Below, piece by piece: positions 18,452-34,963 of a stretch of DNA of 64,000 nt. Each line of letters begins with the position of its first letter. Position 1 is the stretch's first letter. The notes beneath the pieces are model-generated. The model made no database searches and was not told the origin of the DNA. It was given only the letters and a program-made list of their open reading frames with translations. A program made the translations under genes and the position numbers. The DNA comes from Modestobacter sp. L9-4 (GTDB taxonomy: Bacteria; Actinomycetota; Actinomycetes; Mycobacteriales; Geodermatophilaceae): NCBI RefSeq assembly GCF_019112525.1, contig NZ_CP077800.1:2542001-2606000 (forward strand), written 5' to 3'.

Positions 18452-19077
18452 GTCGTCCGGGAGCCGGTCGAGGAGGAGTCGGGGTGCCGGTGCCGCCGGC
18501 GGCGGGCGGCGACCAGGTTGAGCACCACGCCGACCAGCAGCACGAGCACGGTGGCGATGAGGGTGGCCACCAGCGGGGAGTCGAACACCCCGCCGCTGAC
18601 CACGCCGAGCAGCGCGTAGGCCACCGCCCACAGCAGCGCCGCGGCCAGCGACGCCGGCAGCAGCCGCCGCCACGGGTAGGCCAGCGCACCGGCGGCGACC
18701 AGCACCGGGATGCGGCCGGCGGGCAGCAGCCGGCCGACGACGACGATCTGCCAGCCGTGCCGGCGGAACTGCTCGCGCACCTCGTCGATGCGGTCGGCGT
18801 GCTGCCCGCGGGACACCCAGCGCACCGCCGAGGGGCCGCCGAACCGGCAGACGGTGAACGTGACGACGTCCCCGACGAAGGCGCCCAGGGTCGACAGCAG
18901 CACGACCACCGGCAGCGAGAGCTGCCCGCCGCTGACGGCCACCGCGGCGGCCGCGCCGACGACGGCGCCGGTGGGCACGACCGGGACGACCGAGCCCAGC
19001 AGCACCCCGCCGAAGACCAGCGGGTAGCCCAGCGAGCTGCCGTCGGTCCAGCTGACGGCCAGGACGTCGACCGTCAC
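18448..19077 (-). CDS. DedA-family membrane protein
   Basis: A 209-residue DedA/SNARE-associated (VTT-domain) protein. It opens with hydrophobic segments and carries the family features LGAFVGDVVTFTVCRFGG and VVVGRLLPAGRIPVLVAAGALAYPWRRLL, the latter holding the conserved Arg and Pro of the re-entrant loop. DedA proteins are linked to recycling (flipping) of undecaprenyl phosphate or phospholipids. The GTG start at 19077 overlaps the stop of the upstream MBL gene and its own stop overlaps the next start, so the three genes should be translated together. Confidence 0.9.
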   Translation of the reverse strand: MTVDVLAVSWTDGSSLGYPLVFGGVLLGSVVPVVPTGAVVGAAAAVAVSGGQLSLPVVVLLSTLGAFVGDVVTFTVCRFGGPSAVRWVSRGQHADRIDEVREQFRRHGWQIVVVGRLLPAGRIPVLVAAGALAYPWRRLLPASLAAALLWAVAYALLGVVSGGVFDSPLVATLIATVLVLLVGVVLNLVAARRRRHRHPDSSSTGSRTT

Positions 19078-25740: not shown

Positions 25741-28700
25741 GTGAAGACGTGGCTCGACGCGTGGCCGGTGTTCCGGCAGCTCACTGGTAACGACCCGCTC
25801 GCTCGCGGTGTGGCCGCGCGCAGCAAGGCCACCGAACAGGTGGTCAGCCGCACGGCCACCGCCGACCGGGTGGTGAAGTCGGTCTGCCCGTACTGCGCTG
25901 TCGGTTGCGCGCAGCGGGTCTTCGTCAAGGACGAGAAGATCGTCCAGATCGAGGGCGACCCCGACTCCCCGATCAGCCGCGGCCGGCTCTGCCCCAAGGG
26001 CAGCGCCAGCAAGGGCCTGGTCAACAGCCCCTCCCGCGTGACGACGGTCAAGTACCGCCGTCCCTACGCGACGGACTGGGAGGACCTGGACCTCGACACG
26101 GCGATGGAGATGATCGCCGACCGCGTGCTGGAGGCCCGCGAGAAGGGCTGGCAGACCGAGGACCACGGCAAGCGGGTCAACCGCACCATGGGCTTCGCCA
26201 GCCTCGGCGGCGCGACCCTGGACAACGAAGAGAACTACCTGATGAAGAAGCTGTACAGCGCCCTGGGCGCTGTACAGATCGAGAACCAGGCCCGCATATA
26301 GCACTCTTCGACGGTTCCCGGTCTGGGAGCCTCGTTCGGCCGTGGTGGCGCAACCAACTTCCTCGAGGACCTCGCGAACAGCGACTGCATCGTCATCGAG
26401 GGCTCGAACATGGCCGAGTGCCATCCGGTCGGGTTCCAGTGGGTGTCGGAGGCGAAGGCCCGCGGCGCCAAGATCATCCACATCGACCCGCGGTTCACGC
26501 GCACGTCGGCGATCGCCGACCTGCACGTCCCGCTGCGTCTGGGCACCGACATCGCGTTCCTCGGTGGCCTGATCAAGTACGTCCTGGACAACGAGCTGTT
26601 CTTCAAGGACTACGTCGTCGCCTACACCAACGCCGCGTCGCTGGTGGGTGAGGACTTCGTCGACACGGAGGACCTCGAGGGCCTGTTCTCCGGCTTCGAC
26701 CCGGAGAAGGGCCAGTACGACGAGCGCACCTGGGCCTACGAGCCCTCCGAGGTGCCGCACGCCAGCTCCGACGACCCCGCGGGGGCCGCCGCGCAGGAGG
26801 CCGGCAAGCAGGCCGACGACGTCGAGGCCAGCGACCAGTCGCAGACCCACGGCAGCGGTGGCCCGACCATCCCGGCCAAGCCCAAGCGCGACGAGACCCT
26901 GCAGCACCCGCGCAGCGTCTTCCAGGTGCTCAAGCGGCACTTCGCCCGCTACACCCCCGAGATGGTCTCCGACGTCTGCGGCATCGAGCCCGCGGTCTTC
27001 GAGCAGGTCGCCAAGTGGGTCACCAGCAACAGCAACCGCGACCGGACGACGGCGTGGGTGTACTCGGTGGGCTGGACGCAGCACAGCGTCGGCGCGCAGT
27101 ACATCCGCTCGTGCTCGATCCTGCAGCTGCTGCTGGGCAACATCGGGCGCCCCGGCGGCGGCATCATGGCCCTGCGCGGCCACGCCAGCATCCAGGGCTC
27201 GACCGACGTCCCGACGCTGTACAACCTGCTGCCGGGCTACCTGCCCATGCCGCACGCGGGGCAGCACCAGACGCTGGCCGACTACGTCGCCGACGCCGCC
27301 GGCAAGGGCGGCTTCTGGGGCAACAAGCCCGCCTACATCACCAGCATGCTCAAGTCCTGGTGGGGCGACGCGGCGACGGCGGAGAACGACTTCGCCTTCG
27401 ACTACATCCCCAAGATCAACGGCGACCACAGCTCCTACCGGACGATCGCGGACATGATCGCCGGCAAGGTGCACGGTTACTTCCTGGTCGGGGAGAACCC
27501 CTCCGTCGGGCACCCCAACGGCAAGATGAACCGGTTCGGGCTGGCCAACCTCGACTGGCTGGTCGTCCGCGACCTGCAGATGATCGAGTCGGCGACCTTC
27601 TGGAAGGAAGGGCCCGAGATCGAGACCGGCGAGATGGCGCCGGAGACGATCGGCACCGAGGTCTTCTTCATGCCCGCGGCGACGCACACGGAGAAGGAGG
27701 GCACCTTCACCCAGACGCAGCGACTGCTGCAGTGGCGGGAGAAGGCCGTCGAGCCGCCGATGGACGCCCGCAGCGACCTGTGGTTCTACTTCCACCTGGG
27801 CCGCATCATCCGCGAGCGCCTGGCGTCCTCGACCGATCCGCGGGACCGGCCCGTCCAGCACCTGACCTGGGACTACCCGACCATCGGGGAGACCGCCGAC
27901 CCCGACGCGACCGCCGTCCTGCGGGAGATCAACGGCACCGGCCCCGACGGGCGGGCGCTGTCGACCTACATCGACATGAAGGACGACGGGTCGACCACCG
28001 GCGGCTGCTGGATCTACACCGGCGTCTACGCCGACGAGGTCAACCAGGCCGCCCGCCGCAAGCCGGCGCGCGAGCAGGGCCAGGTCGCCTCCGAGTGGGG
28101 CTGGGCGTGGCCGCTCAACCGCCGGATGCTCTACAACCGTGCCTCCGCCGACCCGGACGGCAAGCCGTGGAGCGAGCGCAAGAAGTACGTGTGGTGGGAC
28201 GAGGCCGCCGGCCGCTGGACCGGTGACGACGTCCCCGACTTCGAGGCGACCAAGCGGCCGGACTACGTGCCTCCGGAGGGCGCTCGGGCGCAGGCCGCCA
28301 TCGGCGGTGCCGACCCGTTCGTCATGCAGGGCGACGGCAAGGGGTGGCTGTACGCCCCGGCCGGGCTGGTCGACGGCCCGATGCCGACGCACTACGAGCC
28401 CTCGGAGTCCGTGGCCGAGAACCACCTGTACGCCCAGCAGTCCAGCCCGACCATCGAGCGGATCGCCGGGCCGTGGAACCGGGAGAACCCCTCGCGCAGC
28501 GAGGTCTACCCCTTCCAGGTGACCACCTACCGGCTCACCGAGCACCACACCGCCGGTGGCATGAGCCGCACCCTGCCCTACCTGTCCGAGCTCCAGCCGG
28601 AGTTCTTCGTCGAGGTCTCACCCGAGCTCGCCGAGCTCCGCGGCCTGACCAACGGCGAGTTCGCCACGCTGATCAGCGCCCGGACGGCGATCGAGGCCAA

Positions 28701-29034
28701 GGTGCTGGTGACCGAGCGGATGCGCCCGATCAAGCTCAAGGGCGGGCAGGTCGTGCACCAGATCGGCATGCCGTACCACTGGTCCTACGCGGGTCTGTCC
28801 ACCGGCGACAACGCCAACGACCTGCTCGGGATCATCCTGGACGCGAACACGCACATCCAGGAGGACAAGGTCAGCACCGCCGACATCCAGCCCGGCCGCC
28901 GGCCGCGTGGACCGGAGCTGCTGGACTACGTCGAGGCCTACCGGATGCGGGCCGGCGTGAAGTCGGGCCGGGTGGGGCTCAACGGCCGCGCCCCCGACGA
29001 GGACCCGAGCGCCATGGAGGCGTCAGGCGCATGA
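25741..29034 (+). CDS. fdhA: Selenocysteine-containing formate dehydrogenase catalytic subunit, Sec encoded by UAG
   Basis: One 1097-residue protein read through an in-frame UAG at 26299-26301 as selenocysteine, residue 187. It oxidises formate to CO2 at a bis-molybdopterin Mo/W site whose metal ligand is this Sec. The GTG at 25741 is the first possible start after an in-frame TGA at 25717. A [4Fe-4S] motif uses C49, C52, C56 and C84. The stretch IENQARI, Sec, HSSTVPGLGASFGRGG matches the active site of selenoenzyme FDHs, and AECHPVGFQW follows. The C-terminal molybdopterin-dinucleotide-binding domain ends near 1097. No Tat signal is visible, so the catalytic side may be cytoplasmic. First gene of fdhABC. 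Confidence 0.96.
26251..26277 (+). other. Perfect 12-bp hairpin 21 nt upstream of the UAG-Sec codon
   Basis: Arms 26251-26262 and 26266-26277 are exact reverse complements with a 3-nt loop, inside fdhA codons for LYSALGAVQ. The right arm uses GCT and GTA, which are unusual choices in this GC-rich gene but are needed for pairing. A ribosome with UAG in its A site would leave this hairpin just outside the mRNA exit. Function is inference. Confidence 0.75.
26299..26301 (+). other. UAG codon read as selenocysteine
   Basis: The in-frame TAG stands exactly where FDH selenoenzymes have UGA: cgc-ata-TAG-cac encodes R-I-Sec-H. Homology is continuous on both sides, and a SECIS hairpin starts 11 nt later. 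UAG still serves as an ordinary stop nearby, for example at 32450-32452. Confidence 0.95.
26309..26334 (+). promoter_or_regulatory. Bacterial SECIS element in fdhA
   Basis: A 7-bp stem (26313-26319 with 26325-26331, one G-U pair) closes a GGTCT loop (26320-26324). An outer 3-bp stem (26309-26311 with 26332-26334) is separated by one bulged C at 26312. The stem begins 11 nt after the UAG. E. coli fdhF also has 11 nt after UGA, then GGUU, three bases and a GGUCU loop, so both the register and the SelB-contact loop are the same. Confidence 0.93.
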
Positions 29035-29075
29035 CCACCGGTCCACTGATCACTGAGAACGGGGAACGGCGATGA
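29031..29075 (+). CDS. 14-codon coupling ORF between fdhA and fdhB
   Basis: An ATG at 29031 overlaps the fdhA stop (ATGA). Fourteen codons later its TGA overlaps the fdhB ATG in the same way. It has GGAGG 10 nt upstream. The peptide reads MTTGPLITENGERR. It could carry ribosomes from fdhA to fdhB or be chance. No function can be assigned to the peptide itself. Confidence 0.35.
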   Translation: MTTGPLITENGERR

Positions 29076-30160
29076 CCACGGTCAGCTCGGCCAGTCCCTC
29101 CCTGGAGGGGGCCGACTCCAGGAACCGGCTGTTCGGGCCGCTGCCCGACGTCACGGCCGATGCCGGGTACGAGGAGGAGCACCCCGCGCGGGTGGGCTTC
29201 TTCACCGACACCTCGGTGTGCATCGGCTGCAAGGCCTGCGAGGTGGCCTGCAAGGAGTGGAACACGCTCCCGATGGACGACTCGCACGGTGTGCTCGGCC
29301 AGATGGGCATGTCCGGCATGTCCTACGACAACACCGGGCAGCTGGGCGCCAACTCGTGGCGGCACGTGTCGTTCATCGAGCAGAGCCGCTCGGTCGACCT
29401 GCCGATGCCCACGATCGGGATGCCCGGCGCCGACCGGCACGACGACGCCCACGGCCACGGTCACGACCACGACGTCAGCGCGATCAGCCCGCAGGCCGAC
29501 GGCCCGCTCTCCGCACAGACGAGCGTGCTCAACGCCGAGGCGCTGAGCGAGTTCGACCCGCAGACCTCCGTCACCGGCGGCGACGGCGGCACGCAGATCC
29601 GCTGGCTGATGTCCTCCGACGTCTGCAAGCACTGCACGCACGCCGGCTGTCTCGACGTCTGCCCGACCGGTGCGCTGTTCCGTACCGAGTTCGGCACCGT
29701 CGTGGTGCAGGGCGACATCTGCAACGGTTGCGGCTACTGCGTCTCGGCCTGCCCCTACGGCGTCATCGACGTCCGCAAGGACGACGGCCGGGCCTTCAAG
29801 TGCACGATGTGCTACGACCGCCTGACCGACGGGCTGCAGCCGGCGTGCGCCACGGCGTGCCCGACGCAGTCGATCCAGTTCGGTGACCTCGACGAGCTGC
29901 AGGCCCGGGCCGACGCCCGGCTGGCGACGCTCAAGGGCCAGGGCGTGGAGACCGCGCGGCTGTACGGCCGCGACGAGAGCGACGGCGTCGGCGGCGTGGG
30001 CGCTTTCTTCCTGCTGCTCGACGAGCCCGAGGTCTACGGCCTGCCGCCGGACCCGATCGTCACCACCCGCGACCTGCCCGCCATGTGGAAGGCCGCGGCG
30101 ACGGGTGCGGCGATGATCGTCGGCGTGGTCGTGTCCTCCTTCTTCGGACGGCGGCGCTGA
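29072..30160 (+). CDS. fdhB: Formate dehydrogenase iron-sulfur subunit
   Basis: A 362-residue electron-transfer subunit with sixteen cysteines for four [4Fe-4S] clusters. CIGCKACEVAC lies at 50-60, CKHCTHAGCLDVCP near 190, CNGCGYCVSACP near 225, and CTMCYD with CATACP near 250-270. It passes electrons from FdhA to the membrane subunit. A His/Asp-rich insert (DRHDDAHGHGHDHD) lies between the first and second cluster motifs and is not part of the conserved core. A single hydrophobic segment near the C-terminus (AAMIVGVVVSSFFG) probably anchors it to the membrane. The fdhC start overlaps its stop. Confidence 0.94.
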   Translation: MTTVSSASPSLEGADSRNRLFGPLPDVTADAGYEEEHPARVGFFTDTSVCIGCKACEVACKEWNTLPMDDSHGVLGQMGMSGMSYDNTGQLGANSWRHVSFIEQSRSVDLPMPTIGMPGADRHDDAHGHGHDHDVSAISPQADGPLSAQTSVLNAEALSEFDPQTSVTGGDGGTQIRWLMSSDVCKHCTHAGCLDVCPTGALFRTEFGTVVVQGDICNGCGYCVSACPYGVIDVRKDDGRAFKCTMCYDRLTDGLQPACATACPTQSIQFGDLDELQARADARLATLKGQGVETARLYGRDESDGVGGVGAFFLLLDEPEVYGLPPDPIVTTRDLPAMWKAAATGAAMIVGVVVSSFFGRRR

Positions 30161-31450: not shown

Positions 31451-32452
31451 ATGGCCGTCAGCCCGCACCCAGACCTGCACGGACCGGTCGCGATCGTCGC
31501 CGGAGGGCTCTCGCACGAGCGGGCGGTGTCGCTGCTGTCCGGGGAGCGGATCCAGCGCGAGCTGCAGTCGGTGGGCGTGGACGCGCACGTGGTCGACGCC
31601 GACCAGTCGCTGCTGGCGTCGCTGCGCTCCGGTGGGTACGCCGCCGTGATCCCGACGATCCACGGTGACATCGGCGAGGACGGCACGCTGCAGACCGTGC
31701 TGGAGATGGCCGGCGTGCCGTTCACCGGCTCGGACTCCCGGGCCTGCCGGCTGGCGTGGGACAAGACGGTGGGCCGCACGCTCACCGAGCGCGCGGGGCT
31801 GTCCGCGCCCCCGTGGGTGGCGCTGACCAGCTCGTCGTTCAAGGAGCTGGGCAGCAGCGAGGTCGTGCGCTTCCTGGTGGAGGACATGAGCTGGCCGCTG
31901 GTGGTCAAGCCCAACCGGGGCGGCAGCGTGCTGGGCGTCAACGGCGTGGAGAGCGTCGACGCCCTGGTCGACGCGCTCATGCAGGCCTTCGCCTACGGCG
32001 ACACGGTGCTGGTGGAGAGCTTCACCGAGGGCATGGACGTCAGCGTCGCCGTGCTGGACGTCGACGGCGCCCCGCGCGCCGGGCAGCCGGTGGGCCTGGA
32101 GTACGACCGCAAGGACCGCTTCGACTTCGTCGCCCGCTACGACCCGGCCCGCGTGCAGGTGCACGCCCCCGCCGAACTGCCCGCCGAGACCCTGGCGGCG
32201 CTGCGTACGGCGGCGGAGACGGCGCACACGGCGCTGGGCATGCGAGACCTGTCCCGGGTGGACTTCCTGGTCGCCCCGGACGGCGAGTTCGTGGTGCTGG
32301 AGGTGTCGGCCGTGCCCGGGATGACCGCCACGTCGCTGTTCCCGTTCAGCGTGCAGTCCGACGGCGGTTCGTTCAGCTCGACGCTGGTGTCCCTGCTGAA
32401 GGCCGCCGTCTCCCGCACTGCGCCGTCCGAGGCGGGAGCAACAGCGCCCTAG
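31451..32452 (+). CDS. D-alanine--D-alanine ligase-like ATP-grasp protein
   Basis: A 333-residue ATP-grasp enzyme with the Ddl layout: N-terminal AIVAGGLSHERAVSLLSG, the signature HGDIGEDGTLQ near residue 73, and the ATP-binding lysine in VVKPNRGGS near 154. The metal-binding end reads LEVSAVPGMTATSLFP. Standard Ddl has EVNTxPG there, so the metal-ligand Asn is Ser. It ends with UAG used as a normal stop. A second Ddl-like gene lies at 33845-34963; either could be the housekeeping ligase or act on another dipeptide-like substrate. Confidence 0.82.
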   Translation: MAVSPHPDLHGPVAIVAGGLSHERAVSLLSGERIQRELQSVGVDAHVVDADQSLLASLRSGGYAAVIPTIHGDIGEDGTLQTVLEMAGVPFTGSDSRACRLAWDKTVGRTLTERAGLSAPPWVALTSSSFKELGSSEVVRFLVEDMSWPLVVKPNRGGSVLGVNGVESVDALVDALMQAFAYGDTVLVESFTEGMDVSVAVLDVDGAPRAGQPVGLEYDRKDRFDFVARYDPARVQVHAPAELPAETLAALRTAAETAHTALGMRDLSRVDFLVAPDGEFVVLEVSAVPGMTATSLFPFSVQSDGGSFSSTLVSLLKAAVSRTAPSEAGATAP

Positions 32453-33844: not shown

Positions 33845-34963
33845 TCAGCGGGTGGGACCACCCAGGTTGGCGAGCTTGCCGGCGATGCCGCCGGCGGCGC
33901 GGAGAGCTTCACCGCGGGCGAACACGGTGGGAGCCTCGTTGGAGCTGCGACCGCGCACCGCCTGCTCGAGGGCGTTGGTCAGCAGCGCGGCGGGGGAGTC
34001 GTCGGGCCACAGGTACAGCGACATGGCGCCGGGGATGTTGTTGACCTCGTTGACGAACACCTCGGTGCCGTCGCTGAGGAAGTCCAGCCGGGCGAGGCTG
34101 CCCAGCCCGACCAGGCCGGCGACCTGCTCGGCCAGCGAGCGGATCCGGGCGGCGAGCTCGTTGGAGATCGGGGCGGGCATCTCCCGGGGTGCCTTGCTGA
34201 GCCCGGACGTGTGCAGGTACTTGTCCGAGTAGCTGTAGATCGAGTCGGAGCCGGGGCGGATCGGCTTCTCGATCAGTGAGGCGCGGAACGTCGGGTAGGT
34301 GATGACCGCGACGTTGAGGTCGTACAGGTCGGGCCGGTAGGGCTCGAGCACGGCGCCGTCGGCCAGGTGCACGTTCTGCTTGGCCAGCCCCTTGGCGGCC
34401 GCGAGGTCTTGGACGACCTCGATGCCGATGCTGGAGCCACCGAAGCGCGGCTTGACGATGTAGGGACCGTCGAAGTCGGGGTCGGCATGACCGTCACCGA
34501 CGATCAGCCGGGGGAGGGTCGGCAGCCCCGCCTGGGCGATGACCGAGCCGAAGGCGAGCTTGTCGACCGACAGGGCGCCGGCGAACAGCGAGCCGCCGGT
34601 GGAGGGCAGGCCCATCCAGTCGAACAGCGCACGGGCGCCGCCGGCTTCGGCGTAGCCACCGTGGAAACAGCTGAGCACGGCCTCGGGGCGGTAGGTCTTG
34701 GGACGCAGGCCCTTGACCGGGCGCCAGCCGCCGCTGCGACCGAGCACCGGTTCCACCTGGGTGGCCCGGGCGGGGGCGCCGTCGATGAAGTCGCGGGCCT
34801 CGCTGTCGACCGGGACGGTGTGCCAGTTGCCACCGCGGTCCCAGTAGACGGCGAGGACGTCGAGCCCGCTCTGGTTCAGCAGCCGTGCGGCCTGCAGGCC
34901 GGTCAGGATGCTGATGTCGTGCTCGGCCGAGGGACCACCGAATGCGACGGCGACCTGCTTCAT
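33845..34963 (-). CDS. Ddl-like ATP-grasp ligase of the MurF-like operon
   Basis: A 372-residue ATP-grasp protein: VAVAFGGPSAEHDISILTG at the N-terminus, YIVKPRFGGSSIGIEVV carrying the ATP lysine near 172, and the intact metal-binding end VNEVNNIPGAMSLYLW. The segment after the first domain (residues 60-110) is longer than in classical Ddl, and HGxxGEDG is replaced by HGGYAEAGG. It is the last gene of an operon with an alpha/beta hydrolase and a membrane MurF-like ligase. The trio suggests synthesis and attachment of a dipeptide- or amino-acid-like unit outside the standard peptidoglycan set. That role is inference. Confidence 0.85.
   Translation of the reverse strand: MKQVAVAFGGPSAEHDISILTGLQAARLLNQSGLDVLAVYWDRGGNWHTVPVDSEARDFIDGAPARATQVEPVLGRSGGWRPVKGLRPKTYRPEAVLSCFHGGYAEAGGARALFDWMGLPSTGGSLFAGALSVDKLAFGSVIAQAGLPTLPRLIVGDGHADPDFDGPYIVKPRFGGSSIGIEVVQDLAAAKGLAKQNVHLADGAVLEPYRPDLYDLNVAVITYPTFRASLIEKPIRPGSDSIYSYSDKYLHTSGLSKAPREMPAPISNELAARIRSLAEQVAGLVGLGSLARLDFLSDGTEVFVNEVNNIPGAMSLYLWPDDSPAALLTNALEQAVRGRSSNEAPTVFARGEALRAAGGIAGKLANLGGPTR

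Follow-up and report, generated by a model that had tools for sequence, protein, structure and literature searches.

The fdh locus and its in-frame UAG

The window, a 64 kb stretch of the genome of the soil bacterium Modestobacter sp. L9-4, carries a formate dehydrogenase gene cluster on its plus strand. The fdhA gene contains a single in-frame TAG (26299-26301), located where members of a known selenoprotein family have Sec or Cys. With TAG read through, the product matches NCBIfam NF041513 (formate_DH_Act) with 1895 bits over residues 4-1069. The downstream fdhB has TIGR01582 (FDH-beta) as its best match, at 177.5 bits and thus under the cut-off of 334.7. UAG-encoded selenocysteine of the Geodermatophilaceae is reportedly the subject of Mukai et al. 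2016. The features of the locus are:

25741..29034, plus strand: fdhA, formate dehydrogenase catalytic subunit, 1097 aa with Sec as residue 187, start GTG as read here
26296..26298, plus strand: AUA codon immediately preceding the Sec codon, the same in every UAG copy
26299..26301, plus strand: predicted UAG selenocysteine codon, which in alignments falls opposite Sec140 (UGA) of E. coli fdhF and the Cys codons of homologues
26302..26312, plus strand: spacer from Sec codon to hairpin, 11 nt, of equal length in UAG copies, UGA copies and E. coli fdhF
26313..26319, plus strand: 5' arm of the predicted SECIS stem, GGUUCCC, from folding and pair counts
26320..26324, plus strand: predicted SECIS apical loop, GGUCU, with GGTCT in 105 of 105 UAG copies
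26325..26331, plus strand: 3' arm of the predicted SECIS stem, GGGAGCC, from folding and pair counts
29072..30160, plus strand: fdhB, iron-sulfur subunit, same cluster

Two D-alanine--D-alanine ligase-like genes are also found near the fdh cluster (31451-32452 and 33845-34963), the second of which scores under the family cut-offs.

A hairpin that follows the selenocysteine codon

The original prediction described a hairpin 11 nt past the UAG that reads GGUU, three bases and the loop GGUCU, and precisely this order is found at 26302-26324. A count over both strands of the window gives 267 perfect 7-bp stems with a 5-nt loop. Two of them have a loop of the form RGTYT, and only the fdhA hairpin has a stop codon 11 nt upstream. 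The free energy of the 19-nt hairpin is -11.2 kcal/mol (family mean -11.7, weakest -9.6). As a single sequence its fold is unremarkable (z = -0.56), and a 7-bp stem arises in 8.5% of synonymous-codon shuffles. The case for the hairpin thus rests on comparison. A scan of the 64 kb window against Rfam returned no family at the gathering threshold.

We surveyed 112 Geodermatophilaceae genomes, in which 105 fdhA copies were readable through the codon, representing 71 distinct UAG sequences. Every readable copy has TAG and the loop GGUCU; all seven pairs are formed in 100 of them and six pairs in 5. TAG and hairpin are likewise found in 25 named loci or MAGs of Modestobacter, Blastococcus, Geodermatophilus and Klenkia. 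In G080 (genus group of Klenkia marina), both fdhA copies (L143, L144) are without the stretch of the Sec codon and hairpin and their frame is broken, which may reflect a real deletion or an assembly fault.

The inner six pairs are intact in 425 of 426 cells across the 71 distinct UAG sequences. The fourth pair (26316/26328, hereafter X-Y) is G-U in 28, C-G in 27, G-C in 13 and U-A in 3 of these sequences and is broken in none. X and Y occupy the silent third positions of a Val codon and a Gly codon, and the covariation of the stem as a whole falls mostly on silent positions. On a tree built without the pair columns, UAG copies show 11 changes at X, 19 at Y and 19 of the pair, so that the changes at X add no separate events. 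A sign test on tree-independent pairs fell short of significance, with few supported pairs available.

Two possible extensions of the stem fared less well. The original prediction included an outer 3-bp stem with a bulged C (26309-26311 with 26332-26334), whose middle pair is broken in 47 of the 71 UAG sequences and in 34 of 42 distinct UGA sequences; it is also absent from the RNAalifold consensus folds. Examined for breaks without compensation, the 7-bp stem therefore holds and the outer stem does not. An alternative lower stem, CAC/GUG, depends on a CGT at codon +14. This codon occurs in 93 of 105 UAG copies and is missing from most separately recoded copies, so we take this lower stem to be lineage-specific.

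The hairpin is found at an equal distance after TGA in 94 fdhA copies from other Actinobacteria (42 distinct sequences), with the loops GGTCT (76), AGTCT (15) and AGTTT (3). Five homologues with Cys at this position retain 3-4 of the 7 pairs and have a GGGCT loop, and the hairpin is lost. Present in UAG and UGA copies and lost in Cys copies, the hairpin thus goes with the Sec codon, be it UAG or UGA. The UGA-type element of Amycolatopsis, Streptomyces, Actinomadura and others shares the spacer, stem, loop and compensatory changes. It differs in its UGA codon, mostly preceded by ATT, in allowing the loop AGUYU, and in the covarying pair, which is U-A or C-G there and frequently G-U or G-C in UAG copies.

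A counterpart in E. coli K-12 fdhF (NC_000913) reads TGA, 11 nt, GGTT GCA GGTCT and thus stands in the same register, sharing the 11-nt spacer and GGUU followed by three bases (GCA) and the loop GGUCU. However, fdhF uses UGA, the fourth base of its stem is a bulged U in the fold and its 3' arm is 5 nt long, whereas the UAG fdhA hairpin pairs its fourth base and has two arms of 7 nt. The base at the place of the bulged U is paired in 71 of 71 UAG and 42 of 42 UGA sequences, and the E. coli-type bulge is therefore missing. We conclude that this is the actinobacterial form and does not replicate the E. coli structure, and that the detailed contacts with SelB must differ. The likeness to fdhF put forward in the original prediction is accordingly one of register and loop and does not extend to the bulged-U stem structure.

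The published bSECIS model describes an apical loop of 3-9 nt on an upper stem of 4-16 bp, a G at one or both of the first two loop positions, 16-37 nt from the Sec codon to the apical loop, a minimum free energy of -7.5 kcal/mol or lower, and UGA as Sec codon (PMC13188914). The fdhA element has a 5-nt loop on a 7-bp stem, a loop that begins with GG in all 105 UAG copies, 18 nt between codon and loop (26302-26319) and, at -11.2 kcal/mol, an energy within the stated range; its codon is UAG. It conforms to the structural parts of the model, with the codon as the only departure. The model is written for UGA (PMC13188914), to which systems that use UAG have been reported as an exception (PMC5330540).

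Decoding machinery and the reading of UAG

The 4.22 Mb genome of L9-4, a single contig, encodes one clear tRNASec, which has the anticodon CUA and scores 64.6 bits against the Rfam tRNA-Sec cut-off of 47. It is directly followed by selA and then selB, with selD (assigned by reading its translation) nearby on the opposite strand, all at 3.63 Mb. The genome thus combines a CUA tRNASec with SelA, SelB and SelD, the set expected of a UAG-Sec system. A second tRNA-Sec match barely above the cut-off is an ordinary tRNASer. A tRNA called by ARAGORN at 18564-18659 is unassigned and has a two-base anticodon, and the minus strand there reads as a DedA-like membrane protein; we take this call to be false.

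Across the family, 43 tRNASec genes read from UAG genera have the anticodon CUA, and 7 from genera that branch early have UCA. The latter (g6-g8; L038-L043, L046) place the anticodon switch inside the family. Two g8 genomes also have a different type of formate dehydrogenase with TGA. The SelB proteins of UAG and UGA users have the C-terminal winged-helix motif PFT.S.AR...T.RRV..PL.E.LD in common. In the last winged helix (L371-L393), a Trp is found in 12 of 12 UAG users (ARQAWGT) and a Leu in 10 of 10 UGA users (ARRALGT). Because the same hairpin occurs in UGA copies and the sole tRNASec of L9-4 is of the CUA type, codon and anticodon have changed around a hairpin that stayed. This agrees with the earlier proposal that the SECIS was kept through such a change, with one hairpin after TAG or TGA, CUA versus UCA in tRNASec and a SelB motif retained on both sides.

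The fdhA element is thus almost certainly a bacterial SECIS for UAG-encoded selenocysteine, served by tRNASec (CUA) and SelB and kept from an ancestral UGA-SECIS. In the mechanism that we envisage from these sequences, SelB would carry Sec-tRNASec (CUA) to the UAG of fdhA while its C-terminal winged-helix domain presumably holds the 7-bp hairpin with the loop GGUCU, 11 nt downstream. The codon would thereby be read as selenocysteine instead of being ended by release factor 1, a probable competitor. The ancestral actinobacterial UGA-SECIS of fdhA would have come unchanged through the switches from UCA to CUA and from UGA to UAG, and other fdhA copies in the family may have been acquired with UGA and then recoded.

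Two other readings of the codon were considered. ARAGORN labels the CUA tRNA as tRNA-Pyl(cta), and on this basis UAG could be read as pyrrolysine. The label arises from the CUA anticodon, whereas the 64.6 bits against Rfam tRNA-Sec and the location of the gene directly before selA and selB argue for tRNASec, and homologues have TGA or Cys at the UAG codon; a role for pyrrolysine is barely conceivable. UAG could also be a true stop. In that case fdhA would be either a pseudogene or a pair of cistrons, and the hairpin would be an incidental by-product of constraints on the protein and its codons. The frequency of the stem among synonymous shuffles (8.5%) and the weak fold score (-0.56) are compatible with such a by-product. 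However, more than 100 genomes have one TAG at exactly this codon, with an open frame before and after it, the stem covaries at silent sites, and the sequence flanking the codon, which specifies the catalytic residue, is conserved to either side. We consider a true stop very improbable and retain the reading as selenocysteine.

Selenocysteine is the clearest case of a codon meaning that is set by a local RNA signal. The Geodermatophilaceae separate the two parts of this arrangement: codon and anticodon are exchangeable, and hairpin and SelB stay.

UAG-encoded selenocysteine in this family is already published: PMC5330540, citing Mukai et al. 2016 (its ref. 56), reports a tRNASec with CUA, the selenoproteins FDH, UGSC and AhpC with Sec-TAG, and a bSECIS after the UAG. 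We describe the same system and add covariation counts across 112 genomes, comparisons with UGA and Cys copies, and a number of separate fdhA lineages. New are the four TAG fdhA lineages, the invariance of AUA (105 of 105) and a genome with two tRNASec as a possible case of a second Sec codon. We did not find repeated recoding, AUA invariance or the two-tRNA genome in the open literature; most subscription papers, including Mukai 2016, were outside this search.

TAG lineages, the preceding AUA and a second tRNASec

A protein tree of 64 FdhA rows places TAG in four positions among TGA, namely a main clade (18 rows), L302-306, L301 and L307-308. Four gains of TAG are the minimum on this tree and the starred branches force four changes, with the four groups having been named after the tree was seen and parsimony counts giving no direction. 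A tree constrained to unite all TAG rows is rejected (p-AU 6.7e-59, thinned set), as are three partial unions. Genomes of the additional lineages with a readable tRNASec (G001, G053, G033, G093, G058, G039) all have CUA. The TAG copy L137 and its tree neighbor L179, which has TGA, share an identical 19-nt hairpin but read CGTATATAG and CGCATTTGA, respectively; no other pair shows as clearly a different codon with an unchanged hairpin. TAG in four separated lineages together with the rejection of a one-clade tree suggests that acquired fdhA copies exchanged UGA for UAG on several occasions while the hairpin remained as it was.

The four TAG groups could instead stem from one ancient change from UGA to UAG, with copies later transferred to organisms outside the family and reverting to UGA there. 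The absence of direction in the parsimony counts leaves room for this, and all TAG copies are in genomes of the family, with a CUA tRNASec wherever it could be read. It would have to be reconciled with a minimum of four gains, four forced changes and the rejection of both the single TAG group and the partial unions, and we regard it as unlikely. Repeated recoding, if true, would provide a natural series of replicates of a genome imposing its code on incoming genes.

The codon ahead of the UAG is ATA in 105 of 105 family copies, the separately recoded lineages included, and in 25 of 25 named loci, the two sets partly overlapping. Nearby Ile codons are 90% ATC. The codon before TGA in the 94 UGA copies is ATT (49), ATA (27), GTT (10), ATC (7) or ATG (1), and the TGA neighbors of two recoded lineages have ATT; Cys copies have GTG or GTC. 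U or A in the position immediately ahead of the Sec codon is common, but no more than that. The original prediction attributed the rare codons ATA and TCT to constraint by the RNA structure, which neither codon bears out: ATA does not vary, but its place is upstream of the UAG and outside the hairpin, and the TCT position is TCC in 88, TCT in 14 and TCG in 3 of the 105 copies. We can only guess at the effect of AUA, which might weaken the termination context or act through the P-site tRNA. Its invariance offers a simple hypothesis on release-factor competition. AUA as a general rule for UAG was discarded since the UGSC genes of the family have GAT (13) or GAC (9) before UAG.

The Geodermatophilaceae genome G059 combines a CUA tRNASec and a UAG fdhA with a second tRNASec (81.8 bits) that has the anticodon UCA (L176:1000-5500, L037, contig C17). 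The UCA tRNASec adjoins an AhpD-like gene (Pfam CMD) with an in-frame TGA in a CFYU motif, followed by a hairpin. The stretch has a lower GC content (about 61%) and lies beside a piece of a transposase, and the contig sequence near it is 85-90% identical to other genomes of the genus and 98% to other G059 contigs. A search for the AhpD-like protein in plasmids returned distant relatives only. G059 may use both UAG and UGA for selenocysteine, to judge from its gene content. With both tRNAs in use, two Sec codons could be compared in one cell.

We propose, tentatively and with somewhat more doubt than conviction, that after the anticodon switch fdhA genes taken up from UGA users were recoded to UAG on at least three further occasions, the hairpin staying intact and AUA standing ahead of the UAG in the outcome of each, that AUA is part of the UAG signal in fdhA, and that one genome or more has taken in a UGA-Sec gene together with a UCA tRNASec. 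An imported gene that brings its own UCA tRNASec would, if this is true, give a genome two Sec codons.

The UGSC-family TAG genes (L341-L370), which are unrelated to fdhA, have the same layout of UAG, 11 nt and a 7-bp stem, with the 5-nt loop AGUGU. The L9-4 genome lacks a UGSC match. UGSC copies that have Cys (TGC) instead occur in addition in some genomes.
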